A stretch of DNA of 64,000 nt from a virus. Below are positions 7,837-60,445 of the stretch, in pieces. Below the pieces are notes generated by a model. The model saw only the letters and a list, made by a program, of their open reading frames with translations, ran no database searches and had not been told where the DNA came from. Both the position numbers and the translations under genes were made by a program. The stretch covers positions 1 to 64,000 of IMG/VR virus record IMGVR_UViG_3300035180_002599. One strand, 5' to 3'. Position 1 is the stretch's first letter, and each line of letters starts with the position of its first letter.

Positions 7837-7860
7837 TTTAAGGAATATTTTGATATAATA
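7837..7860 (+). promoter_or_regulatory. Host-type promoter for nadM
   Basis: TTTAAGG, then a T-rich stretch and the extended -10 TGATATAATA. There is no -35. The same layout recurs before many plus-strand genes here and resembles Campylobacterota sigma-70 promoters. Confidence 0.65.
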
Positions 7861-7872
7861 AATATATAAAAA

Positions 7873-7916
7873 TAACCGATATGGTTATCTTTAAATTTAC
7901 CGACGAAGGTGATATT
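7873..7916 (+). promoter_or_regulatory. Conserved NAD-gene leader hairpin, copy 1
   Basis: A 6-bp hairpin (ATAACC, loop GATAT, GGTTAT) is followed by AAATTTACCGACGAAGGTG and the nadM start. The same arrangement, with compensating changes in the stem, occurs before nadV. The Shine-Dalgarno GAAGGTG lies in a possible second small hairpin (ACC-GACGAA-GGT). This suggests shared post-transcriptional control; the ligand or protein is unknown. Confidence 0.55.
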
Positions 7917-8960
7917 ATGAAAAAAAGTCTAGCAGTCTATATTGGACGTTTCCGTCCTCTACACAATGCACATCGCAATACAATTGAAACTTGTCTTAAA
8001 GAAAATGATGAAGTTTTGATTCTTATTGGGTCATGTGGAAATCCCCGAAATATTAAAAACCCGTTTACATTTGATGAGATCAATATTATGATTCGCTCAT
8101 GTTTCTCTGAAGAAGAAAATTCTAGAATTAAAATTGAGCCTCTTCTTGACCATTCATATGATGATACGAAATGGATTTCTCAAGTTCAAGGTATTGTTAA
8201 TACCGTAAAAACCTCAGATGAGAACATTAAGCTATATGGTAATGAGAAAGATCACTCATCTTTCTATCTGAAGTTTTTCCCTCAATGGAAATTTCGAGAT
8301 ATTGAAAACGTTTCAGATCTTCACGCTACAGATATTCGTAGATGTATGTTTTCAGATGAAGATAAAGAAGGTAACTGGATGTTGATTCAATCAAAAGTAC
8401 CAAAGTCTGTATTTTTGTTCTTGAAAGCGTTTGAAAAAACACAAGATTTTAAGAATCTAAAAGAAGAATATGATTTTATTCAAAAATATCGAAAATCATG
8501 GGAAAAAGCTCCATATCCACCAACATTTGTTACCGTAGACGCTGTTGTAGAATGTCTAGGTCACGTTCTTATGATTCAACGAAAAGCAACACCAGGTAGA
8601 GGTCTTTGGGCAATGCCAGGCGGATTTATTGATGTTCATGAAAAAATTGAAGATGCCATGATTCGTGAGTTGAAAGAAGAAACCAAAATTGATGTTTCTC
8701 ATAACCTTATAAAAGGTAGCATAAAAGCTAAAGAGGTTTTTGATAATCCTTATCGTTCTCTAAGAGGTAGAACAATTACACATGCTTATCATGTCGTTCT
8801 TAATCTTGACTATCTCCCTAAAGTAAAGGCAGATGATGATGCTATGGATGCGGTATGGATTCCTCTAGCAACACTTGCAGAAATGAGCAATCTTTGTTTT
8901 GAAGATCATATTGATATAGTTGCATATTTCACTAAAATTTCAAAAGTTTTTAAACATTAA
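7917..8960 (+). CDS. nadM: Bifunctional NMN adenylyltransferase / Nudix hydrolase
   Basis: This 347-residue enzyme has an N-terminal nucleotidylyltransferase domain: GRFRPLHNAH at residues 10-19 holds the HxxH-type ATP site. A C-terminal Nudix domain follows, with a box starting GGFIDVHEKIEDA near residue 235 and ending RELKEETKID. The first domain joins NMN and ATP to make NAD; the Nudix half probably hydrolyses ADP-ribose or a related nucleotide. An upstream in-frame ATG exists, but the chosen ATG has GAAGGTG at good spacing. With nadV 0.3 kb downstream it forms a two-step nicotinamide-to-NAD salvage route, as in KVP40-type phages and the NARP2 counter-defence pathway. Confidence 0.92.
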   Translation: MKKSLAVYIGRFRPLHNAHRNTIETCLKENDEVLILIGSCGNPRNIKNPFTFDEINIMIRSCFSEEENSRIKIEPLLDHSYDDTKWISQVQGIVNTVKTSDENIKLYGNEKDHSSFYLKFFPQWKFRDIENVSDLHATDIRRCMFSDEDKEGNWMLIQSKVPKSVFLFLKAFEKTQDFKNLKEEYDFIQKYRKSWEKAPYPPTFVTVDAVVECLGHVLMIQRKATPGRGLWAMPGGFIDVHEKIEDAMIRELKEETKIDVSHNLIKGSIKAKEVFDNPYRSLRGRTITHAYHVVLNLDYLPKVKADDDAMDAVWIPLATLAEMSNLCFEDHIDIVAYFTKISKVFKH

Positions 8961-8982
8961 TTAAGTTTAATATGATATAATT
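8961..8982 (+). promoter_or_regulatory. Host-type promoter
   Basis: TTAAGTTTAATATGATATAATT directly after nadM, about 30 bases before the next small gene. Confidence 0.6.
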
Positions 8983-9010
8983 AGTATATCAAAAGAAAAG
9001 AAGGATTGAA

Positions 9011-9232
9011 ATGAACTCACCTGATAAGAGAACTCAAAAAGCATTACAACGTCTAAGGCAAGGTAAAGGTATATACTTAATCACAATTAGCTTGCCTGAT
9101 GGTGGTTCTTATAAACTTTTAGTAAAGTTTAACAAGGGCGAATCTTTCATTGTTAAATTTTACAAAGACGGAAATCGTCTTGGTAAAAGAAAAAGAGGAA
9201 TTATCCTCAAGAAGATTCAAAAACATATTTAA
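9011..9232 (+). CDS. Small basic protein, unknown
   Basis: A 73-residue, strongly basic protein (KRKRGIILKKIQKHI at the C-terminus) between the two NAD genes, with its own promoter and the RBS AAGGA. The charge could suit nucleic acid binding, but no domain is recognised. Confidence 0.6.
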   Translation: MNSPDKRTQKALQRLRQGKGIYLITISLPDGGSYKLLVKFNKGESFIVKFYKDGNRLGKRKRGIILKKIQKHI

Positions 9233-9271
9233 AATCCGATATGGATTAAATTTAACCGAAGAAGGTGTAAA
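9231..9271 (+). promoter_or_regulatory. Conserved NAD-gene leader hairpin, copy 2
   Basis: AATCC, loop GATAT, GGATT forms a 5-bp hairpin followed by AAATTTAACCGAAGAAGGTG and the nadV start. Compared with the nadM leader, the loop and downstream block are kept while the stem bases change in a paired way. Confidence 0.55.
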
Positions 9272-10648
9272 ATGAAAAATAGAATTATGATGGTAGACAG
9301 TTATAAATTGTCTCATAAAAACATGTATCCACAAGGTGCTAACTATATGTTTGATTATATGGAAAGCCGTGGCGGTCTATACCCAGCAACTATATTTGTG
9401 GGTCTTCAACCAATGCTAAAAGAGTATTTCAGTGAACCCATCACTGAAAATGAAGTTATTGAAGCCCAAGGTTATGCAAAAGCCCATGGTGTTCCATTTG
9501 ATTATGATGGGTGGATGTACATCGCAAAAGATCTTAAAGGTATGCTTCCTATTCGCATCAGAGCTGTAAAAGAAGGAACACTAGTTCCTGTAAGTAATGT
9601 AATGGTCACAATCGAAAGTACAGACCCAAAAGTTTTTTGGGTTGTATCATGGCTTGAAACATTCTTCATGAAAATTTGGTATCCAATTAACGTAGCAACA
9701 CGTAGTTTTTACGTTCGCAAAATGCTAAAAGAATTTAGCGATAATACCGGTTCTGGATTTGTGGATTTTAGTTACCACAATTTCGGCGACAGAGGATCTA
9801 CTTCTATAGAGGCAGCTGCAATCGGTGGTTCTGCTCATATGGCAGTAGGTTTCCAAGGTACTGATAATTTCAATAGTCTAAAATTTGTCTTTGAAAACTA
9901 TGGTGATACTAATGTAGGCTTCAGCATTCCAGCGAGTGAACATTCAACAGTAACTAGTTGGGGACAAGAAAATGAATATAATATGATTGCTAATTACGTG
10001 GAAGAATTCAAAGGCTCTCCAATCATTGCTTGTGTTATGGACAGTTATAACATTTTTGAAGCTGTTAAATTCATCACAAGTGGTGAAATGAAAACAAAAA
10101 TTGAAAGCGATGATTATCCTATTTTCGTTATTCGCCCTGATAGTGGTAACCCAGTAGAAGTTATCGGAGCTATTATCAATATCATGGAAGATAATAGTGT
10201 CAAATTCACAATGAACGATAAAGATTACAAAGTCTGGAACAAATATCGTATAATTTGGGGCGACGGCATCAACATGGAATCAATGAAAGAAATTCTAGAA
10301 TATGTGACTGAACGTGGCTACAGCTCTGATAATATTGCATTCGGATCTGGCGGTTGGCTCATGCAACAACATGACCGGGATACGCAAAAATTCGCTATCA
10401 AATGTTCAGCTATTCAAGTTAATTCTGAAATGAGAGATGTATTTAAAGACCCAATAACAGACCACGGCAAAAAATCTAAGAAAGGTATAATCACACTTTG
10501 GAAAACTGAAAATGGCTATGAAACTGATTATAGAAACAGATCTTGGGAAGATAAAATAGTCGACTCCCTTGAGGTAGTTTTTGAAAACGGTGTTCTTAAA
10601 CGCAATCAATCATTCAGTGAAATTAGAGAGATTGTAAGCAAACAATAA
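9272..10648 (+). CDS. nadV: Nicotinamide phosphoribosyltransferase
   Basis: A 458-residue NAMPT-family enzyme that converts nicotinamide and PRPP to NMN. Typical segments are DSYKLSHKNMYP near the start, DYMESRGG, FGDRGSTSIEAAAIGG, IPASEHSTVTSWGQENEY, VIRPDSGNP, IIWGDGIN and AFGSGGWLMQQ. The Arg/Asp/Gly elements of the phosphate and nicotinamide sites (RPDSG, GDG) are present and the length is normal. The start is set by GAAGGTG in the conserved leader. It supplies NMN to NadM encoded just upstream, which can restore NAD during infection, including after NAD-depleting host defences. Confidence 0.95.
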   Translation: MKNRIMMVDSYKLSHKNMYPQGANYMFDYMESRGGLYPATIFVGLQPMLKEYFSEPITENEVIEAQGYAKAHGVPFDYDGWMYIAKDLKGMLPIRIRAVKEGTLVPVSNVMVTIESTDPKVFWVVSWLETFFMKIWYPINVATRSFYVRKMLKEFSDNTGSGFVDFSYHNFGDRGSTSIEAAAIGGSAHMAVGFQGTDNFNSLKFVFENYGDTNVGFSIPASEHSTVTSWGQENEYNMIANYVEEFKGSPIIACVMDSYNIFEAVKFITSGEMKTKIESDDYPIFVIRPDSGNPVEVIGAIINIMEDNSVKFTMNDKDYKVWNKYRIIWGDGINMESMKEILEYVTERGYSSDNIAFGSGGWLMQQHDRDTQKFAIKCSAIQVNSEMRDVFKDPITDHGKKSKKGIITLWKTENGYETDYRNRSWEDKIVDSLEVVFENGVLKRNQSFSEIREIVSKQ

Positions 10649-13063: not shown

Positions 13064-13139
13064 GTATCGGTAGCCCAATGGTTAAGGCACTATACTTTTA
13101 ATATAGGGATTGAGAGTTCGAGTCTCTCTCGATACACCA
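13064..13139 (+). tRNA. tRNA-Lys(UUU)
   Basis: A canonical cloverleaf: acceptor GTATCGG/TCGATAC, D-loop with GG, anticodon loop CTTTTAA, T arm GAGAG-TTCGAGT-CTCTC, and encoded CCA. Confidence 0.93.
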
Positions 13140-13145
13140 AAATAG

Positions 13146-13219
13146 TTAATTTATGAAGACACATTATCTTGAAAATAAATGAAGGTCATGAGACAGTTGT
13201 GTGTGTAACCATAAGTTAA
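13146..13219 (+). ncRNA. Structured RNA element, unknown
   Basis: A 10-bp terminal stem (TTAATTTATG with CATAAGTTAA, one G-U) encloses an ACACA/TGTGT helix and a possible small anticodon-like hairpin with loop CTTGAAA. It resembles a degenerate tRNA but no T arm or CCA can be placed. It may be a processing signal or a small RNA. Confidence 0.35.
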
Positions 13220-13222
13220 TTA

Positions 13223-13281
13223 ATAATTTGATAAAGAAACGGATTTTATAACAGACACATCACGTTTCTTTATCAAGTTAT
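13223..13281 (+). ncRNA. Long 19-bp hairpin
   Basis: A 19-bp stem with a single G-U pair and a 21-base loop. The inner arms are TTGATAAAGAAACG and CGTTTCTTTATCAA. It has no U-tract, so it is more like a processing or regulatory hairpin than a standard terminator. Confidence 0.45.
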
Positions 13282-13320
13282 AAAATAACTAATAAATAAA
13301 ATAAAAATCAAGGAGCAAAT

Positions 13321-13407
13321 ATGTTTAGTCATATGCAACCGCATAGTTTTAGTACTTTTCATCATTTTAGTATGAGCATGTTTGCTCATTTTATGCTGAG
13401 TTATTAA
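13321..13407 (+). CDS. 28-residue His/Phe/Met/Ser-rich peptide
   Basis: ATG with AAGGAG at good spacing encodes MFSHMQPHSFSTFHHFSMSM and eight more residues. Among 28 residues there are five His, six Phe, five Met and six Ser. The stop is directly followed by two mutually exclusive hairpins, which is the layout of an attenuation leader. tRNAs for Phe, His and Ser lie downstream. A metal-binding micropeptide is an alternative. Confidence 0.5.
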   Translation: MFSHMQPHSFSTFHHFSMSMFAHFMLSY

Positions 13408-13443
13408 TCTCAGGAATTTCGGTTCCTGAGAGGGAACCGAAAT
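13408..13443 (+). promoter_or_regulatory. Mutually exclusive hairpins after the peptide stop
   Basis: Fold A pairs TCTCAGGAA with TTCCTGAGA. Fold B pairs ATTTCGGTTCC with GGAACCGAAAT (11 bp). They share the TTCC segment and cannot coexist, as in attenuators or riboswitch expression platforms. No U-tract follows fold B. Confidence 0.5.
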
Positions 13444-13521
13444 AAGATCTTACAAATCCTCTGTTTCAGTAACATTTCCGTTACGTTCCTCCAACAAAAT
13501 AATTTTTTTTAATGTCACCTT

Positions 13522-13554
13522 TTTCAGAAATACTTATACTTTTTCTGAAATTTT
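13522..13554 (+). terminator. Possible intrinsic terminator
   Basis: TTTCAGAAA pairs with TTTCTGAAA (9 bp), followed by TTTT. The stem is AT-rich and weak; it lies just before the tRNA-Phe-like gene. Confidence 0.35.
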
Positions 13555-13559
13555 CTCAT

Positions 13560-13635
13560 GCCATTCATACAAATCAAGTGAATGTACCAGACTGAAAATC
13601 TGAGGAGCCGGGAGCGTTACCCGGGAATGGCACCA
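13560..13635 (+). tRNA. tRNA-Phe(GAA)-like gene with non-canonical T-loop
   Basis: The acceptor GCCATTC/GAATGGC is perfect, with A and an encoded CCA. The anticodon loop is CTGAAAA (GAA) on a stem with one C-A mismatch. The T stem CCGGG/CCCGG is perfect but its loop is AGCGTTA. The D arm is TACA/TGTA with loop AATCAAGTGAA, lacking GG. A canonical tRNA-Phe lies about 120 bases downstream with a related acceptor stem. Confidence 0.6.
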
Positions 13636-13673
13636 TTGAACATACAATAAAGAACTTATTGAAGTTTTTAATT

Positions 13674-13747
13674 GTGTTCGTAGCATAAAAGTAATGCGCT
13701 GGTTTGTGGCACCAGATAAGCGGGAGCGTTACCCGTCGTTCACCCCA
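13674..13747 (+). tRNA. tRNA-His(GUG)-like gene with non-canonical T-loop
   Basis: The D stem GCAT/ATGC has loop AAAAGTA, and the anticodon stem CTGGT/ACCAG has loop TTGTGGC (GTG). The T stem is GCGGG/CCCGT with loop AGCGTTA. The 3' end is C73 plus CCA, as expected for tRNA-His. The acceptor GTGTTCG/CGTTCAC has U-U mismatches at positions 4 and 5, the same two as in the canonical tRNA-His twin downstream. No G-1 is encoded (the base is T). Confidence 0.6.
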
Positions 13748-13751
13748 AAAT

Positions 13752-13826
13752 GCCATCATAGCTCAATGGTAGAGCGATACGTTGAAGGCGTATGCGTTGT
13801 AGGTTCAAGTCCTACTGTTGGCACCA
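13752..13826 (+). tRNA. tRNA-Phe(GAA)
   Basis: Acceptor GCCATCA/TGTTGGC, D arm GCTC-AATGGTA-GAGC, anticodon loop TTGAAGG (GAA), T arm GTAGG-TTCAAGT-CCTAC, encoded CCA. Confidence 0.92.
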
Positions 13827-13835
13827 TCTTTTTAT

Positions 13836-13912
13836 CTGGTTGTAACGTGAGTGGTATAACGGGCCGTTTTGGAAACGGGGAGAAGTGAGTTCGAGTCTCA
13901 CCTGCCAGACCA
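13836..13912 (+). tRNA. tRNA-Pro(UGG)
   Basis: Acceptor CTGGTTG/CTGCCAG with one mismatch, D-loop GAGTGGTATA, anticodon loop TTTGGAA (TGG), T arm GTGAG-TTCGAGT-CTCAC, encoded CCA. Confidence 0.88.
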
Positions 13913-13925
13913 ACAATTTGTAAAT

Positions 13926-14002
13926 GGTGTTTGTAGATTTAATGGTAAAACGCTTCCCTGTGAAGGAAGTAATTGAGAGTTCAAGTCTCTCCATTCACCC
14001 CA
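13926..14002 (+). tRNA. tRNA-His(GUG)
   Basis: G-1 is encoded before GTGTTTG/CATTCAC. The anticodon stem CTTCC/GGAAG has loop CTGTGAA (GTG), the T arm is GAGAG-TTCAAGT-CTCTC, and C73 is followed by CCA. The acceptor has U-U mismatches at positions 4 and 5. Confidence 0.9.
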
Positions 14003-14008
14003 AAATAT

Positions 14009-14080
14009 GCCTACACTTCAGGTGAAGATCGTTCTCTCATAAGGAATGATAGTGTGGTTCGATACCACATGTAGGTACCA
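14009..14080 (+). tRNA. tRNA with CAU anticodon (Met or Ile2), short D arm
   Basis: The acceptor GCCTACA/TGTAGGT, anticodon loop CTCATAA and T arm TGTGG-TTCGATA-CCACA with encoded CCA are clear. Only about 15 bases separate the acceptor and anticodon stems. The D arm is reduced to CTTC-AGGT-GAAG with a 4-base loop. It could be elongator Met, or Ile if lysidine-modified. Confidence 0.8.
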
Positions 14081-14097
14081 ATAATAATGTTTAGTAT

Positions 14098-14172
14098 CGG
14101 GATATGGGAAAGTGGTAATCCGCTTGTTTTGGGAACATGAGACCGTCGGTTCGAGCCCGACTATCCCGACCA
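14098..14172 (+). tRNA. tRNA-Pro(UGG), second copy
   Basis: Acceptor CGGGATA/TATCCCG is perfect, the D-loop has GTGGT, the anticodon loop is TTTGGGA (TGG), and the T arm is GTCGG-TTCGAGC-CCGAC with encoded CCA. Confidence 0.9.
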
Positions 14173-14296: not shown

Positions 14297-15001
14297 ATGC
14301 ACTTTAAAAACTTCTTATTTGAAGATGACAAAATAAAACAATATTCTATTTTATTAAAAGAATGTGAAATAATGAATTCAGATGCTATGTTATTGTTTAG
14401 AGGTTCTAAACATCAAAACTCAAATTTTGAACGTATTAAAACCCGAAAAGATAGAAGACCTTTAGACACTTCACCATTGATGCAAAAATATATGGATGAT
14501 GCTTTTGAAAATAAATTTAAAGAGAGAATAAGAAGCACTACAGTTTTCTGTGCTCAAGATAAAGTAATGGCAGGGATTTATGGACCTTTATATGTAGTAT
14601 TTCCCACTACAAAGGCTGAGTATTTTTCTACAGATGAATTTATAGATTTAAATTCAGTATTTTCTGATTATATAGGTAGAACCTTAAGTAAGCTTCATTC
14701 AAAAAAAGTATCTGAATTTGAGAAAAAATATAATTATGATGATTATGCTCAATTTTTGCCGGATGAATTATTAAGAGAAAATAGTTCAGATGATACAAAA
14801 TCACTAGATATGTTAAACGATTTCTTGGATTGTATTGCAGATTTTTATGAAAAAACAAACGTTCCAAAAAATAGAATTGGAGAACAGATGATTCTTTGTG
14901 ATGAATATATCTTGGTAAAATATTCCTCTTTACCTGAACCTGATGTAAACACTTATTCAGAATTAAAAAAAGTTTTAGAAAAATTAATTGAAAATGCTTA
15001 A
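14297..15001 (+). CDS. ADP-ribosyltransferase-like protein with capsid-targeting-like N-terminus
   Basis: This 234-residue protein begins MHFKNFLFEDD, like the T4 capsid-targeting peptide with an L-x-E cleavage site. Its layout matches arginine mono-ADP-ribosyltransferases: LLFRGSK (R site), RIRSTTVFC (S-T-T site), then GEQMILCDEYILVK as the possible catalytic Glu region. The middle block RRPLDTSPLM is shared with the 260-residue paralogue near 58.7 kb (RKPLDTGKVL). The upstream late octamer fits a virion-packaged effector like T4 Alt. The ART assignment rests on motif order, not a database match. Confidence 0.6.
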   Translation: MHFKNFLFEDDKIKQYSILLKECEIMNSDAMLLFRGSKHQNSNFERIKTRKDRRPLDTSPLMQKYMDDAFENKFKERIRSTTVFCAQDKVMAGIYGPLYVVFPTTKAEYFSTDEFIDLNSVFSDYIGRTLSKLHSKKVSEFEKKYNYDDYAQFLPDELLRENSSDDTKSLDMLNDFLDCIADFYEKTNVPKNRIGEQMILCDEYILVKYSSLPEPDVNTYSELKKVLEKLIENA

Positions 15002-21193: not shown

Positions 21194-22024
21194 ATGCATT
21201 ATAAAGATTTTTTATTTGAGAATTTAAATGAATATAGTCAAGAACGCTCTCAAGTCATTAAAATAGAAGAAGTTGTTAAATTAATAAAGACTGATTATTC
21301 AGAAGCTTGGAATAAATTAAATGAAGGTATTGTTCTTTACAGAGGAACTGAAAATAATTCTGATTTTATTATTACAGACCCCTCAATAGGTATTAGAAAT
21401 TCGGCAAACACTTTTAATTATTATACAGCTATTATAGATAATTCTAAGAGATGGAAAGGTTATCCTAAAAGATCTAAATCGGTTATATGCAGCACTTCAA
21501 TATCATATGCTGGAGGTTATGGTTCTGTTTTTTATGTGTTGCCAAAAAACGGATCTAATATAGGAGTAGCTCATGAAAGAGATTTTTGGGAATCATTTCC
21601 TATATTAACCCAACGTTTAGTTAAATTTGGATTCCGAGCTAAAACCTTACGAGGATTGAATTTAATAATAAATGCTCTTATATCTATAGCAGTTCCTAAT
21701 ATTAATCCTGATATTAAAGAATTTTCTACATTAGCTAAAACCTTAAAAGAAGTTGATGAGTATTTGAACAAAAAAGAATATTTGGAAGACGAAAACATAG
21801 ATCAAGAAATGTTGAAGAATTACATGGAGTTCTTAAATGTACACTCAGATGATAAAATTAACTGTTTAGAAGATATTGACAGTATATTAAATCCAGAAGA
21901 TAATAATTTCAAAAAATTCAAGCTAAGTGATTTCTCTATTAAAGGCGATCATGAGGTTTGGACAGACGGAAAATGTTTAATGATTAATGTTGATAAATTA
22001 GATTCATTAGGTGAATTATTATGA
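21194..22024 (+). CDS. ADP-ribosyltransferase-like protein with capsid-targeting-like N-terminus
   Basis: A 276-residue protein starting MHYKDFLFEN, with an L-F-E site at residues 7-9. ART-like order: IVLYRGTEN (R), YPKRSKSVICSTSISYAGGY (S-T-S) and, near the C-terminus, HEVWTDGKCLMI (candidate catalytic Glu). The next gene is a paralogue with the same three blocks (FYRGDK, YPKREYSVIGST, KEVWTDEDCVMI). It overlaps that gene by 4 bases. It probably modifies host proteins after injection, as T4 Alt does; this is inference from motifs and N-terminus. Confidence 0.6.
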   Translation: MHYKDFLFENLNEYSQERSQVIKIEEVVKLIKTDYSEAWNKLNEGIVLYRGTENNSDFIITDPSIGIRNSANTFNYYTAIIDNSKRWKGYPKRSKSVICSTSISYAGGYGSVFYVLPKNGSNIGVAHERDFWESFPILTQRLVKFGFRAKTLRGLNLIINALISIAVPNINPDIKEFSTLAKTLKEVDEYLNKKEYLEDENIDQEMLKNYMEFLNVHSDDKINCLEDIDSILNPEDNNFKKFKLSDFSIKGDHEVWTDGKCLMINVDKLDSLGELL

Positions 22025-22845
22025 GATTCTCTATTTTTTTACAAGAAAAACATGAAGGAACGAATAGAACAAAAGCTATCACTAAAAAGAAGTTAAAAGA
22101 ATTATTATCAGAATATAATGAAGATGAATTGCGAAATATTCTTGGTTCATCCGATAAATTTAATAAATTCTATAGAGGGGATAAGTTAAATAAATCTATA
22201 GGGTTCATTAGTCCTAAATTATCGAGAAGATTCTCTCCTTATGCTGCAAATAACTTTTATAATCTTTACTTATCTAATTCTAATGATTGGTCTGCATATC
22301 CTAAGCGTGAATATTCTGTAATTGGAAGTACAGGTTATGGCAAAGCATCTTCATATGCGGTTAATGAGCCTTTTATTTTGATACCTATTAAGAAAAATGC
22401 AAAAATAGGAATAGCCCCGGCTGATGATATATGGGATTCTTTCTTAAAAAAATTAGGTGATCTAAATAAAATAAACAAAATGGTAGGTAGAGCAGCTTCT
22501 ATTATTAATAAAAATTATTCTGGCTGGGATGAAAATTGGGAAAAAACTTTAGACATATTGAAATCTTTCAATAAAGATGCATTAAAGGGACTTGGATCTG
22601 GACAAATTGATAGCTTATTTGAAGATTTTCCGATGCTTAAAATGTTGATGAAGAGATATGATTCATTATACGATGCCTTAGAAGATAGAATGTCTCCAAA
22701 AGATAATGGGTTTTCAGTAGTAACTTTTGATAAATTCCTTACTGGTTCATATGGAAATAAAGAGGTCTGGACTGATGAGGATTGCGTTATGATAAAAGTT
22801 ACGGATTCTATAGATATCTTATATGAATTAACTAAAGGAAAGTAA
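22021..22845 (+). CDS. ADP-ribosyltransferase-like paralogue with capsid-targeting-like N-terminus
   Basis: A 274-residue paralogue of the preceding protein. It starts MRFSIFLQEK (L-Q-E at residues 7-9) and carries FYRGDK, YPKREYSVIGST, the region FILIPIKKNAKIGIAPADD, and KEVWTDEDCVMI near the C-terminus. The STS serine pair is reduced to ST-G, so activity may differ. It is coupled to its neighbours by an overlapping start and a two-base gap. Confidence 0.6.
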   Translation: MRFSIFLQEKHEGTNRTKAITKKKLKELLSEYNEDELRNILGSSDKFNKFYRGDKLNKSIGFISPKLSRRFSPYAANNFYNLYLSNSNDWSAYPKREYSVIGSTGYGKASSYAVNEPFILIPIKKNAKIGIAPADDIWDSFLKKLGDLNKINKMVGRAASIINKNYSGWDENWEKTLDILKSFNKDALKGLGSGQIDSLFEDFPMLKMLMKRYDSLYDALEDRMSPKDNGFSVVTFDKFLTGSYGNKEVWTDEDCVMIKVTDSIDILYELTKGK

Positions 22846-25449: not shown

Positions 25450-27069
25450 ATGACTCATTTATATCAAGAAGTATCAAAAAAAGGGACAGAATTCTTAAAC
25501 ACCATCTTTAATAAAGAAATAACGATTACTGAAAAGTTAGATGGTACTGCATTAATATGTAAACGAACCAAATCTGGCATAATTTTCTTTGGTAGAGATG
25601 GAACTAAGAAAATAGATAAAGTAGCTAGAATGTTTAGCACCATGTATGAAGCAGGAATTGAATATTTAAAAACTAAAGATTTATCATTTCTTAGATTAAA
25701 TGAAGAATTACATTTTGAATATTTTGCTCCTAAAGTTACTCATATAGTTTCATATGATAACATTCCGGAAAATGGTTTAGTATTGCTTGCTAGTACAACT
25801 AAACGTAATTTGAATATGATAGCATATGATTTAGGGGTATTGCCTCCTCCAATAATATTCAAAGGAAAATTGAATGATGAACAGAAAGATGAGCTAACTA
25901 AATTTTTGATTATGAGTCCAGAGCTTAGACAAATAAAATTCAAAACTAATTCATTTACTTCTTTTATTGTTAGTTTATTGAATGATAATTATACACCAGC
26001 ATTGGGTAGCAATGACATAGAAGGCATAGTAATAAGCACTCAAGATGGTACTTTTGTTTCAAAAATAATAGATCCATTATTCACAGATACCGTAATGTCT
26101 AAGAAAGATAATGATGAAGTAAAGGCGGAATATTATAAAGACATATCTCGTTTAGTAACTAATTTGGAAATGACTGGAGTTGAAACATATGATTCTCCAG
26201 AAGCAAATATTGAGGACAGATATATTGACTTTTTGATGAATATCATCATAAACAATATTAGTTCTATAATGGATAAAAAACAAGAGTTTGCTAAATATGA
26301 TTTTGGAAAACCTTATATAGCTTCTTATACTGATTTTAATTACAATGTTTTTCCTAAAGTCGTATCCGACATTATGAAAGATAATCCATGGTTTAGAGAT
26401 TTTGCTAGATTGACATTTAACACTTATGTTAAACCTAAAAATCGAGCTACGAAAAATTTTAGCAAAGATGATATTCAAATAATTAATAGAAAAATAGAGC
26501 TAATTAAAAAATATGTTCTATTAGATGATGATTTAGATGATGTAGTTGAATCTGTTATAGATGAACCTTTAGAAGTTTATGGGGTAATGTTTGGAAGATT
26601 TCAGCCATTAACTAATGGACATTTGAAAGGTATTGTGCAAATGTCCGAACAAGCAGACAAAGGATGTATTTACTTAGTAAAAGGTGAAAAAACATCCAGT
26701 GATAAAGATAAAAATCCTTTTGATGAAGAAATTCAAATCAAAATGCTAGAAGCGGTTGTTCCTAAAAATATTGAAGTAAAAGTTATAAACGCTGCATTTT
26801 TTCCAGATGTTATTAATGAAATGGATTACAATAATTATTTAGTTTTTTGTGGGTCTGATAGATACACGTCTTATTCTAAAATGTTATCTTATGTTGATGA
26901 AGGTAAAACTGTAGAGATTATTGAAATAAATAGAGATGAAAGCGAAGATGTTTCTGCAACTAAAGTAAGAGCTGCTTTAAAGAATGAGGACAAAGAACTT
27001 TTTGAACAAATGACTCCTAAAGAAATTCACAATTTTTATGAAGAATTGTTAACGTATATTGGTGAATAA
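25450..27069 (+). CDS. RNA ligase fused to an NMN-adenylyltransferase-like domain
   Basis: This 539-residue protein has two parts. The N-terminal half is a nucleotidyltransferase-type ligase: EKLDGTA puts the adenylated lysine at K29 (KxDG), with FGRDGTKK, HFEYF (motif IIIa-like) and EGIVIST (motif IV) following. From about residue 378 there is a nucleotidylyltransferase domain with FGRFQPLTNGH, CGSDRY and SATKVRAAL, the hallmarks of NMNAT/NadR. The ligase half resembles phage RNA ligases rather than DNA ligases. The fusion may make or use NAD at RNA ends, or couple RNA repair to NAD status. Confidence 0.8.
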   Translation: MTHLYQEVSKKGTEFLNTIFNKEITITEKLDGTALICKRTKSGIIFFGRDGTKKIDKVARMFSTMYEAGIEYLKTKDLSFLRLNEELHFEYFAPKVTHIVSYDNIPENGLVLLASTTKRNLNMIAYDLGVLPPPIIFKGKLNDEQKDELTKFLIMSPELRQIKFKTNSFTSFIVSLLNDNYTPALGSNDIEGIVISTQDGTFVSKIIDPLFTDTVMSKKDNDEVKAEYYKDISRLVTNLEMTGVETYDSPEANIEDRYIDFLMNIIINNISSIMDKKQEFAKYDFGKPYIASYTDFNYNVFPKVVSDIMKDNPWFRDFARLTFNTYVKPKNRATKNFSKDDIQIINRKIELIKKYVLLDDDLDDVVESVIDEPLEVYGVMFGRFQPLTNGHLKGIVQMSEQADKGCIYLVKGEKTSSDKDKNPFDEEIQIKMLEAVVPKNIEVKVINAAFFPDVINEMDYNNYLVFCGSDRYTSYSKMLSYVDEGKTVEIIEINRDESEDVSATKVRAALKNEDKELFEQMTPKEIHNFYEELLTYIGE

Positions 27070-57509: not shown

Positions 57510-58243
57510 TGTTGCCCCATTCCTTCTAATATTTTTAATAAGTCTTTATATGTTCTTATAACCGAAAAAGATGTAATAATATGATTCTGCTGTAATCATT
57601 ATTTCATTATTTTTATATGTACTATAATCAGGCATTGAACCGGATTTTGTATATGTATCCACCACAGTTGTTAACCATTTAGTTGAAGGTTCTTCATTAA
57701 ATTTAGATGCAGTATTATTTTTTTAATCTGTGTACAGTTGGCCAAAACTATTATTTCCAAGAAAATCAGGTACTGTTAAACCAAACGAATCTGCAAGATC
57801 CTTTACAACATCATCCTTATAAGTATAACCAAGTGTTGTAATCATTTCTACTGATTTTGGGAGATAAAGTAATCTTGTCATATCTTTTACTACTTTTGAA
57901 AAATAGAAAGTTGAACCTGGTTTAGGTATAATAATTGCAGTCTCCCCAAGTTGTTTAAATGAGTTAGCAAGACTAATTGAATATGTACAAAATAATGATG
58001 ATCGAAGTTTTACACCGAACTTTTTATTAAACAAAGAATCCATTTTCTCTGATAGTTCTTTTGATGTGTTTAACGGGGCCCTATCTGTCCTAATTTTAAA
58101 CTCACCAAATGTATCAAGTTTTTTTTGCAAATCCTCGAAACAAACAATGATTTTTTTCTAATTTTTGTGAGAATAATTTGTTGACGGATAGTATCAAAAT
58201 TGTCTGTAAAATCATTTTCCAATACAAATCGTCTAAAATTCAT
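57506..58243 (-). pseudogene. Decayed ART-like gene
   Basis: The minus strand starts MNFRRFVLEND, a capsid-targeting-like N-terminus. It then needs two frameshifts to read QKLEKNHCLFRGFAKK and KLDTFGEFKIRTDRAPLNTS, hits an in-frame stop after GQLYTD, and resumes with STYKNNEIMITAESYYYI before a last frameshift (RTYKDLLKIL). Block by block it follows the intact 260-residue ART-like gene next to it. The only surviving long frame (57723-58130) lacks its R site. Confidence 0.75.
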
Positions 58244-58267: not shown

Positions 58268-59050
58268 TTAATCATTGGATACATCATTAAAGGCTTTTTT
58301 CATATCTTCTAGAAATACTAGTAGATTTGCATATGTATCAATACCTGAATAATTTGGCACTTTTACATAATAATATGAGTCATTTTCAATCATAATTTCA
58401 TTAGACTTGTATTGGTTATATGGAGGAAAGCTGGAAAATTTTTTATATGTCTCAGCAGTTCTTTTAAATACTTCGTTGATTAAACTAAAATCTATATTCT
58501 TATTTTTTGAAGCTATTATCTTCATATATAAGTTAGAAAATCTACTACTACCTAAATCCATAGGTTTCATACCAACACTCTTAGCAAGCTCATCTTGCTC
58601 ATCTTTTGAAAATCCTATTTTATCTAACATAACATCCATATTAAGATCATAAAAAAATTGTGTCATATCAGGGATTATTGAAGATGCATAAAATGTACTT
58701 CCAGCTTTTGGTACAACTATACCAATATTTCCCATATTAAAACTAAGACCAGTATAAGACATTGCAATTTTAGGTGAAAATGTGGCGAATGTTGTTGATG
58801 AACGAATGGGTTTATTGAATAATTTAACAAATTCTTCATCCATTTTTGTAGATAAAACTTTACCGGTATCTAATGGTTTTCTAAATTGTCTAATCGTTTT
58901 TTCTCCAACTGGGTCGATAGGTTTTAAGAAACCACGATAAAGACAATGAGTTTTTTCTAATTTTTGAGACTTAATAGATTCTATAATTTGTAACAGAATA
59001 CCTTCAAATTTATTATTTTTAGTCTCCAGTACAAATCGTTTAAAATGCAT
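58268..59050 (-). CDS. ADP-ribosyltransferase-like protein with capsid-targeting-like N-terminus
   Basis: A 260-residue protein starting MHFKRFVLETK. ART-like order: CLYRGFLKP (R), RSSTTFATFSP (S-T-T), GIVVPKAGSTFYASSIIPDM, and YKSNEIMIENDSYYYVKV near the C-terminus (candidate Glu). It shares RKPLDTGKVLSTKMDEEF with the 234-residue ART-like protein near 14.5 kb (RRPLDTSPLMQKYMDDAF). It is intact beside a broken copy, showing duplication. It probably acts on host proteins after injection. Confidence 0.62.
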   Translation of the reverse strand: MHFKRFVLETKNNKFEGILLQIIESIKSQKLEKTHCLYRGFLKPIDPVGEKTIRQFRKPLDTGKVLSTKMDEEFVKLFNKPIRSSTTFATFSPKIAMSYTGLSFNMGNIGIVVPKAGSTFYASSIIPDMTQFFYDLNMDVMLDKIGFSKDEQDELAKSVGMKPMDLGSSRFSNLYMKIIASKNKNIDFSLINEVFKRTAETYKKFSSFPPYNQYKSNEIMIENDSYYYVKVPNYSGIDTYANLLVFLEDMKKAFNDVSND

Positions 59051-59890: not shown

Positions 59891-60257
59891 GGGGTCGAAA
59901 TAGGATTCGACATTTTTTCTGTGTAATATAACAATCAAGCAATCTGGGAAGATTTTAAATATCCAACAAATAATAACAGCAAACTCAACTAGCTATAATA
60001 CATCTTACGCACTAGCTGCGTAATGTACGGGGTTGTCAAGACTCGCCCTGTTACCTAAATCTTGACTCCTTGTTTACATAGGATAAAATGTAAGTTGTTC
60101 GATATGCAATTCATAATCGCGAGTATTAGAAAGTAATACAATCATTATACAATGAATAAATGTTTTGATTTTCGGTTTTTAAGAAAGCCGTCTAAGCTTG
60201 TATTAAATTGTTATGTGAAGGATGAAATGGAACTCGGGGCAGTACCGAGCGACTCCA
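59891..60257 (+). ncRNA. ssrA: Phage tmRNA with non-canonical T-loop
   Basis: GGGGTCG opens the acceptor and pairs with CGACTCC at the 3' end; AGGATTCGAC is the conserved tmRNA D region. The P2 helix pairs CAAGC with GCTTG and ATAACAAT with ATTGTTAT. The tag frame starts at GCA (59979) and encodes ANSTSYNTSYALAA then TAA, ending in the usual ALAA degron. A pseudoknot (GTCAAGA/TCTTGAC with ACGGGG/CCCTGT) follows. The T stem CTCGG/CCGAG is perfect but its loop is GGCAGTA. CCA is not encoded. It could rescue ribosomes stalled during infection. Confidence 0.88.
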
Positions 60258-60445
60258 ATCTTTCTAAGAATTAACCTTCACGCGGTGAAAGATGTAAGTA
60301 CTCGATAGAGGAAACTAATAATTCTAAAATAAAGTATGAAATGAATATCTTTGAAAAAGAAATAATTTTCCTAGAGGTTTCTTCAGGTATAATGGATAGA
60401 ATTTATGTTGGTTGATATACCTGAGTGTTGATTATCAATAAAGGA
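60258..60445 (+). ncRNA. Structured RNA region after tmRNA
   Basis: There is no ORF. It contains TTCAC-GCG-GTGAA and a TCAGGTATA/TATACCTGA hairpin with a 22-base loop. It probably lies on the tmRNA primary transcript and may be trailer or a separate small RNA. Confidence 0.35.

Follow-up and report, generated by a model that had tools for sequence, protein, structure and literature searches.

A covarying two-hairpin leader upstream of the NAD-salvage genes nadM and nadV in phages and bacteria

Dual-site translational repression by CsrA and RsmE acts on two hairpins with GGA-type loops, one of which lies over the Shine-Dalgarno (SD) sequence. NrtR, an ADP-ribose-sensing Nudix repressor of NAD genes, binds DNA operators. 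The DNA polymerase (gp43) of phages T4 and RB69 has an autogenous translational operator, and the available part of the study describing it reports loop bases that vary among related phages (PMC3014915). According to the sections available of two further sources, rebuilding of NAD from nicotinamide by nadM and nadV is a survival route for phages facing NAD-destroying bacterial defences (PMC9503650, PMC12028318). The first of these, which surveys viral NAD systems, includes the NadV and NadM of phages; leaders go unmentioned in its available parts and the word 'riboswitch' is absent from its main text (PMC9503650). In the open-licence full-text literature, judged by titles and the beginnings of abstracts, we found no paper describing a leader of the kind reported here, and both this leader and the control of nadM and nadV appear to be undescribed.

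We analysed a window comprising the initial 64 kb of an IMG/VR phage record of 93,309 bases (G000; the record is incomplete), in whose ORF list T4-type genes were recognised by eye. On the plus strand, nadM (7917-8960) encodes a bifunctional NMN adenylyltransferase/Nudix protein of 347 aa and nadV (9272-10648) a nicotinamide phosphoribosyltransferase of 458 aa, both identified with Pfam and NCBIfam. The ORF list places a basic 73-aa ORF between them (9011-9232, plus strand), which has no Pfam or PHROG match above cut-off. Its stop codon (9230-9232) directly adjoins the first hairpin of the nadV leader, and its product is a possible alternative regulator of the leaders.

Elsewhere in the window, six tRNA genes lie at 13064-14169 and a tmRNA gene at 59891-60258. 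Five similar phage proteins form one family (14297-15001, 21194-22024, 22021-22845, 57723-58130 and 58268-59050), the first and last of which both belong to phrog_11975, a PHROG without assigned function. We take their R-G ... S-T-S/T ... E look to recall ADP-ribosyltransferases, a likeness that has no library match; if they were such enzymes, the phage would both spend and rebuild NAD. A 539-aa protein (25450-27069) carries a second nucleotidyltransferase domain at its C-terminal end (PF01467, residues 380-508), and the EKLDG motif in its N part recalls RNA ligases.

Both NAD genes of the window are preceded on the plus strand by two hairpins, H1 and H2, with a conserved AAATTTA linker between them. 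An earlier note on this DNA had described a GATAT hairpin before each gene, and direct reading of the sequence confirms it at 7872-7888 and 9233-9247. In nadM, H1 is a 6-bp stem (ATAACC/GGTTAT) and in nadV a 5-bp stem (AATCC/GGATT), each carrying the pentaloop GATAT and each recovered by RNAfold and a hairpin scan. Equally borne out, by sequence and RNAfold, is the description of AAATTTA(A)CCGA(C/A)GAAGGTG after both copies of H1, with the SD in a second small hairpin. The linkers occupy 7893-7899 and 9248-9254. H2 of nadM (7897-7912) reads TTACC-GACGAA-GGTGA and holds the SD GAAGG (7905-7909) in its loop and 3' arm, while H2 of nadV (9255-9266; ACC-GAAGAA-GGT, SD GAAGG at 9261-9265) is weak, having 3 bp only; both were found with RNAfold and the hairpin scan. 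From the start of the H1 loop to the start codon there are 39 nt in nadM and 34 nt in nadV. Comparison of the two H1 stems shows a fixed loop-adjacent CC/GG and, among the next three pairs, one unchanged and two changed on both sides (A-U to U-A and U-A to A-U). The statement that stem bases change in pairs is thus true, although within the window the evidence consists of these two events only.

RNAfold places H1 and H2 in the minimum-energy and centroid structures of both trimmed leaders, with weak fold z-scores of -1.86 and -1.66. Throughout the record, on both strands of the window and of the other 29 kb, a GATAT loop with a stem of at least 4 bp occurs at two sites only. The motifs CCGANGAAGG and AAATTTA(A)CCGA are likewise confined to the two leaders, and CCGAYATGG occurs twice in 93,309 bases, so that the absence of a third copy, first remarked for the window, holds over the whole 93-kb record. 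The nadM and nadV leaders align with a score of 39; the highest score among 20,000 composition shuffles was 32. Some leader pairs gave higher scores, probably from overlapping ORFs, and were left out of the comparison. A scan that ignored loop sequence found H1-like and H2-like hairpins together at 3 of 110 ORF starts, two of them being nadM and nadV.

Overlooked at first reading was that both H1 loops contain an AUG (GATATGG). The ATG in the nadM loop, at 7881, is in frame with nadM and is where the ORF list starts the gene; that in the nadV loop continues GAT TAA. An AUG in the H1 loop, as the idea of a mini-uORF would have it, was not seen in other lineages. A promoter scan found none directly upstream of either leader, and by eye only, a TATAAT is present at 7854-7859.

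As far as sequence comparison can tell, the window leader is probably a lineage variant of a much wider two-hairpin nadM/nadV leader. Profile searches of viral contigs gave 80 nadV loci and 80 nadM loci. An exact-motif scan of viral contigs with CCGATATGG...CCGANGAAGG returned 37 stretches, none of them a nadM/nadV leader, and a search of viral contigs with a single NadV protein returned no relatives. GATAT is absent from the leaders of the relatives, in which H1 has a different conserved loop and is followed by an A-rich linker, the SD hairpin and the ATG. The general layout, present in most phages that have both nadM and nadV, begins with H1, whose stem covaries and whose conserved pentaloop lies about 38 nt upstream of the AUG (31-46 nt from loop to start codon across the family); an A-rich linker of variable length and sequence follows, and then H2, a covarying hairpin around the SD. 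A lack of hairpin conservation in relatives had been named as what would speak against a functional element; the layout proves widely conserved, the GATAT loop itself does not.

When the best hairpin was taken from each of 253 non-redundant leaders, its pentaloop was most often ATAGA (57), AGAGA (20) or AGTGA (9), and both instances of GATAT are those of the window. The H1 loop follows lineage, being AUAGA, AGAGA/AGUGA, GUAGU or GUUGA, with GAUAU in the window. Stems of at least 4 bp flank the word ATAGAC in 62 of its 105 occurrences in leaders versus 12 of 338 elsewhere in the same loci, a control made without selection. An SD hairpin with a GGAnn loop and at least 4 bp precedes 169 of 220 nadM/nadV starts versus 25 of 964 other ORF starts (compared by Fisher test); these other ORFs include one nadA as well as neighbours from the same cluster. 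The covariance model R1 gave 48 matches at E<0.001 in 45 phage records, 35 of which have a match at E<=1. Within each record the matches lie within about 9 kb of each other, around nadM/nadV by position, their downstream genes being partly identified. Applied to 33 held-out loci that had been retrieved with the NadM of the window, R1 found 33 matches in 19 of them, all on the gene strand.

The leader stands on both genes in the cultured Synechococcus phages B23 and BUCT-ZZ01, Rhodobacter phage RcXuper and Xanthomonas phage LucasX. Pectobacterium phage CBB and Salmonella phage Munch have a hexaloop, GNNGUA, on both genes. The nadV genes of Escherichia phage Lw1 and Klebsiella phage KLB15 have the SD hairpin only. 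In KLB15 (L241, L262) the distant nadM and nadV have in common an SD hairpin of the form ACGU-GGAG[U/C]-ACGU, and in KVP40 (L046, L259) these genes, again distant, have only an SD hairpin of the UGG(G)GAG(C)CCA type in common; the leaders of KLB15 and KVP40 are possibly a reduced form. Neither hairpin was found in Staphylococcus phage SAP01 or phage ICP1, both without NadM. The same two-hairpin leader precedes a nadA (quinolinate synthase, above the NCBIfam cut-off) on a phage contig (L137:1908-2798). It is also seen on small uncharacterised genes of the same clusters (L086:362, L115:1602, L110:750, L168:2072, L150:2274 and L157:2314), some of them PHROGs without assigned function; these are candidates for new NAD-related or regulatory proteins.

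Chromosomal nadM-nadV pairs of Xanthomonadales, Burkholderiales and other bacteria show the same leader layout. One bacterial genome scan gave 80 nadV loci, in which H2 is present in 45 of 51 unique nadM leaders and 12 of 77 nadV leaders, and a G[AG]NAGAC loop lies at the right distance in 82 bacterial leader entries. A second model, R2, was built from 28 non-redundant bacterial leaders. Its 82 matches across the 80 bacterial loci all occupy one of two recurrent sites, consistent with the starts of nadM and nadV. In 15 whole genomes (3.7-9.7 Mb), with at most 150 candidates scored per genome, R2 identified two sites in ten genomes, one in one and none in four, so the regulon looks like the nadM-nadV pair and little else. 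An adjacent bacterial nadM-nadV pair (G180) has a canonical leader. In Variovorax (L347, L355, L362, L368, L381), the nadM and nadV leaders have, by eye, a GUUGA pentaloop in common and GC-rich stems. In Xanthomonas albilineans (L346), where the nadM match covers the C-terminal part only (query 208-349), the nadM leader is gone and the nadV leader is kept.

Covariation was assessed in alignments A3 (48/52 filtered sequences), A4 (the AUAGA class, 40/52) and A6 (25/26), all preselected for an H1 stem of at least 5 bp; a mixed-class alignment, A5, was misaligned by MAFFT and left out. In the 40 AUAGA-class leaders so selected, all 12 pairs change on both sides, with 184 double-change cells versus 51 in shuffles, and sliding the pair partners destroys this signal. 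RNAalifold predicts exactly H1 and H2 from the same leaders unaided. H2 is the cleaner covariation test because the class had been preselected for the H1 stem and not for H2; here 88.8% of cells are paired and all five pairs have changed on both sides. H1 of the AGNGA class shows 65 double changes versus 17 in shuffles. Bacterial leaders picked by loop word only, with no stem selection (A7; 28 non-redundant of 82 leader entries), have 88.1% of cells paired and 59 double changes versus 20 when shuffled.

These data also bear on whether the hairpins could be a passive element, tuning or stabilising initiation as a standby structure or by protecting the mRNA 5' end, that spread together with a mobile nadM-nadV cassette. 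A passive role is possible for hairpins close to an SD, and the leader does track the co-occurrence of nadM and nadV in phages and bacteria. However, the loop survives complete turnover of the stems and is matched on two separate genes, and this speaks against a passive structure, which needs no loop sequence. We regard such an explanation as improbable.

Neither covariance model recognises the window leaders: R1 gives no significant match (nadM 6.9 bits, E=0.81; nadV 3.1 bits, E=5.5) and R2 no match at all. Their membership of the family therefore rests on layout, spacing and gene pair. Both genes of this one genome carry the leader with the same H1 loop, both loop distances fall within the family range and the SD lies inside H2 on both. 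GAUAU fits a loose R-N-N-R-W consensus, drawn here from the observed loops. H2 of the window has GACGAA/GAAGAA and the SD partly in the 3' arm in place of the GGAnn pentaloop of the family. The two leaders could in principle be unrelated to the family and without function, having arisen by local duplication or as two AT-rich leaders that converged on the same SD context. The failure of both models would fit this, as would the 25-30 bases that the leaders have almost verbatim in common and the tail-sheath relatives of the window phage, none of whose 11 records, many of them short, has nadV, leaving the exact variant without a second genome. Against it stand the two compensated pair changes, the identical loop on the same gene pair and the family spacing; moreover, R1 also missed the AGNGA class, which is a clear lineage, finding nothing in records such as those of L097, L131 and L136. 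Being blind to records of other loop classes, R1 is class-specific. An unrelated pair of this sort is very improbable, and the window pair is probably, on its sequence features, a divergent variant with its own loop, GAUAU, for which one genome was found here. Its leaders would descend from, or converge on, the same system as the wider family.

The conserved signal is RNA, as shown by the strand bias of the loop: among 443 unique leaders, 154 have the hairpin with the loop in sense and 1 in antisense orientation. A DNA operator was accordingly rejected as the main reading, given these strand-specific loops and the position of the nadV copy between a stop codon and the SD. Of 66 genomes, 37 have an identical pentaloop on nadM and nadV, where shuffling gives a mean of 14.8 and at most 24, and pairings of loop class within genomes are RTAGA with RTAGA in 27 cases, RGNGA with RGNGA in 16 and direct crosses of the two in 2. 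A loop that differs by lineage yet matches within the genome makes a co-evolving protein likelier than an invariant NAD riboswitch.

The earlier note had proposed a shared RNA operator or small riboswitch, possibly sensing NAD, NMN or nicotinamide. Its first part is supported by the strand-specific loops, the covarying stems, the SD hairpin and the restriction to nadM/nadV across phages and bacteria. As a small translational riboswitch, H1 loop and H2 would bind a pyridine nucleotide or related metabolite and control access to the SD. The two ordered hairpins ending at the SD and their confinement to NAD-salvage genes, one phage nadA among them, are what such an element might show, and NAD+-II riboswitches, in the parts available of the relevant papers, also act on translation of an NAD-related gene (PMC7749635, PMC10085692). 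The conserved unpaired core, however, amounts to about five loop bases and the SD; the loop changes by lineage and is nevertheless the same on both genes of a genome, linker length and sequence vary, no Rfam family matches, and nadV without nadM is nearly always leaderless. A riboswitch now seems unlikely.

The co-occurrence of the leader with the partner gene points, at the level of sequence, to a factor encoded by the nadM-nadV pair, NadM before NadV. In bacteria, the nadV hairpin is present at 49 of 52 loci with nadM versus 1 of 28 without. Among phage records, 34 of the 41 that have a strong NadM show H2 before nadV, versus 1 of the 9 without, the one being an 11.5-kb fragment; 34/41 is the script count, which hand correction (L053, L058, L063) would raise to 37/41. 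The nearest nadV relative of the window (L050, 56% identity), from a record with a weak NadM match only, has neither hairpin, and with few exceptions genes of either kind without their partner have no leader. These partner correlations are partly confounded by ancestry and start-codon calls. NadM presence alone is not enough, since nadM from bacteria without nadV has the leader in 0 of 5 cases; two nadM genes with a remote nadV have none either. Trees of NadM and NadV built for one set of 45 genomes require 4 and 7 changes of loop class, respectively, a small contrast obtained on long branches with three discordant genomes of 48 left out. A Pfam search found no known RNA-binding domain in NadM, and its Nudix part scores weakly against the NrtR model of NCBIfam.

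The leader might instead be read in trans by NadV, by an RNase, by an RNA-binding protein of the host or by a small phage protein, for example the product of the 73-aa ORF. H2 loops contain a GGA reminiscent of CsrA and RegB targets, the basic 73-aa ORF sits between nadM and nadV, and loop matching within genomes fits any cassette-linked protein. CsrA and RegA were rejected as common factors: PF02599 occurs in 1 of 31 phage records and PF01818 in 7 of 31, and neither was found in the incomplete record of the window. One phage contig, L252 (the record of L054), encodes a CsrA homologue (PF02599, E=5.9e-21). The lack of library matches for the 73-aa ORF also counts against this alternative, and the occurrence of the leader in both phages and bacteria calls for a factor that moves together with the two genes. 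We consider a reader of this other kind doubtful.

The features found by computation, namely shared structure, covariation, strand specificity, gene restriction and within-genome loop matching, are consistent with a translational operator of two hairpins whose reader is a protein encoded with nadM and nadV, most likely NadM; we give this reading a probability of roughly 0.5. H2, when held closed, would block the SD so that ribosomes could not start. An RNA-binding protein encoded by the pair, most likely NadM itself, would read the H1 pentaloop about 38 nt upstream and, once bound, stabilise or cover H2, and output of the NAD-salvage enzymes would thereby be limited by the level of their own product. 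Release might follow when the enzyme is busy, or when substrate or NAD/ADP-ribose levels shift during anti-phage NAD depletion. Repression at the RNA level, a protein ligand, NadM as that protein and the metabolic signal are what we infer. More tentatively, a mobile NAD-salvage cassette of phages and bacteria may carry its own RNA-protein circuit, in which NadM is the repressor reading the pentaloop upstream of both genes and possibly senses NAD/ADP-ribose through its catalytic or Nudix site, loop and protein having co-diversified into the lineage pairs AUAGA, AGNGA, GUAGU, GUUGA, GNNGUA and GAUAU.

The leader suggests an on/off control of NAD salvage that appears undescribed. If an NAD enzyme does read it, a metabolic enzyme would be regulating genes by binding RNA, and the matched pairs of loop and protein would form a natural library. 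Because the leader stands on both genes in cultured phages and on bacterial chromosomes, the question is directly testable.

Several known systems resemble the nadM/nadV leader in part. CsrA/RsmE targets also have two hairpins, one of them over the SD, but the H1 loops here are mostly AUAGA or AGAGA, with no GGA; in the window the H1 loop GAUAU has none, and its record contains no csrA. With NrtR the likeness is that a Nudix-related domain controls NAD genes, the difference that the conserved feature of nadM/nadV is a strand-specific RNA. Rfam scans of the window and its relatives found no family at the leaders, and a loose threshold gave matches at chance level only (DapZ, E=0.54). The NAD+-II (pnuC) riboswitch is likewise located in the 5' leader of an NAD-related gene and acts at the ribosome binding site; in the available parts of its descriptions it has three helices, a long-range pseudoknot and a highly conserved core, and belongs to pnuC of Streptococcus and others (PMC7749635, PMC10085692). 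The nadM/nadV leader, in contrast, consists of two simple hairpins with lineage-variable pentaloops; it has no Rfam match (Rfam 15 may not hold the NAD+-II class) and no pseudoknot predicted, the folding tools used being ones that do not model them. In the gp43 operator, one gene is controlled and a DNA-binding enzyme is the repressor, whereas the nadM/nadV leader belongs to two NAD-salvage genes, encloses the SD in a second hairpin, occurs on chromosomes as well as in phages and would be read by a putative repressor.
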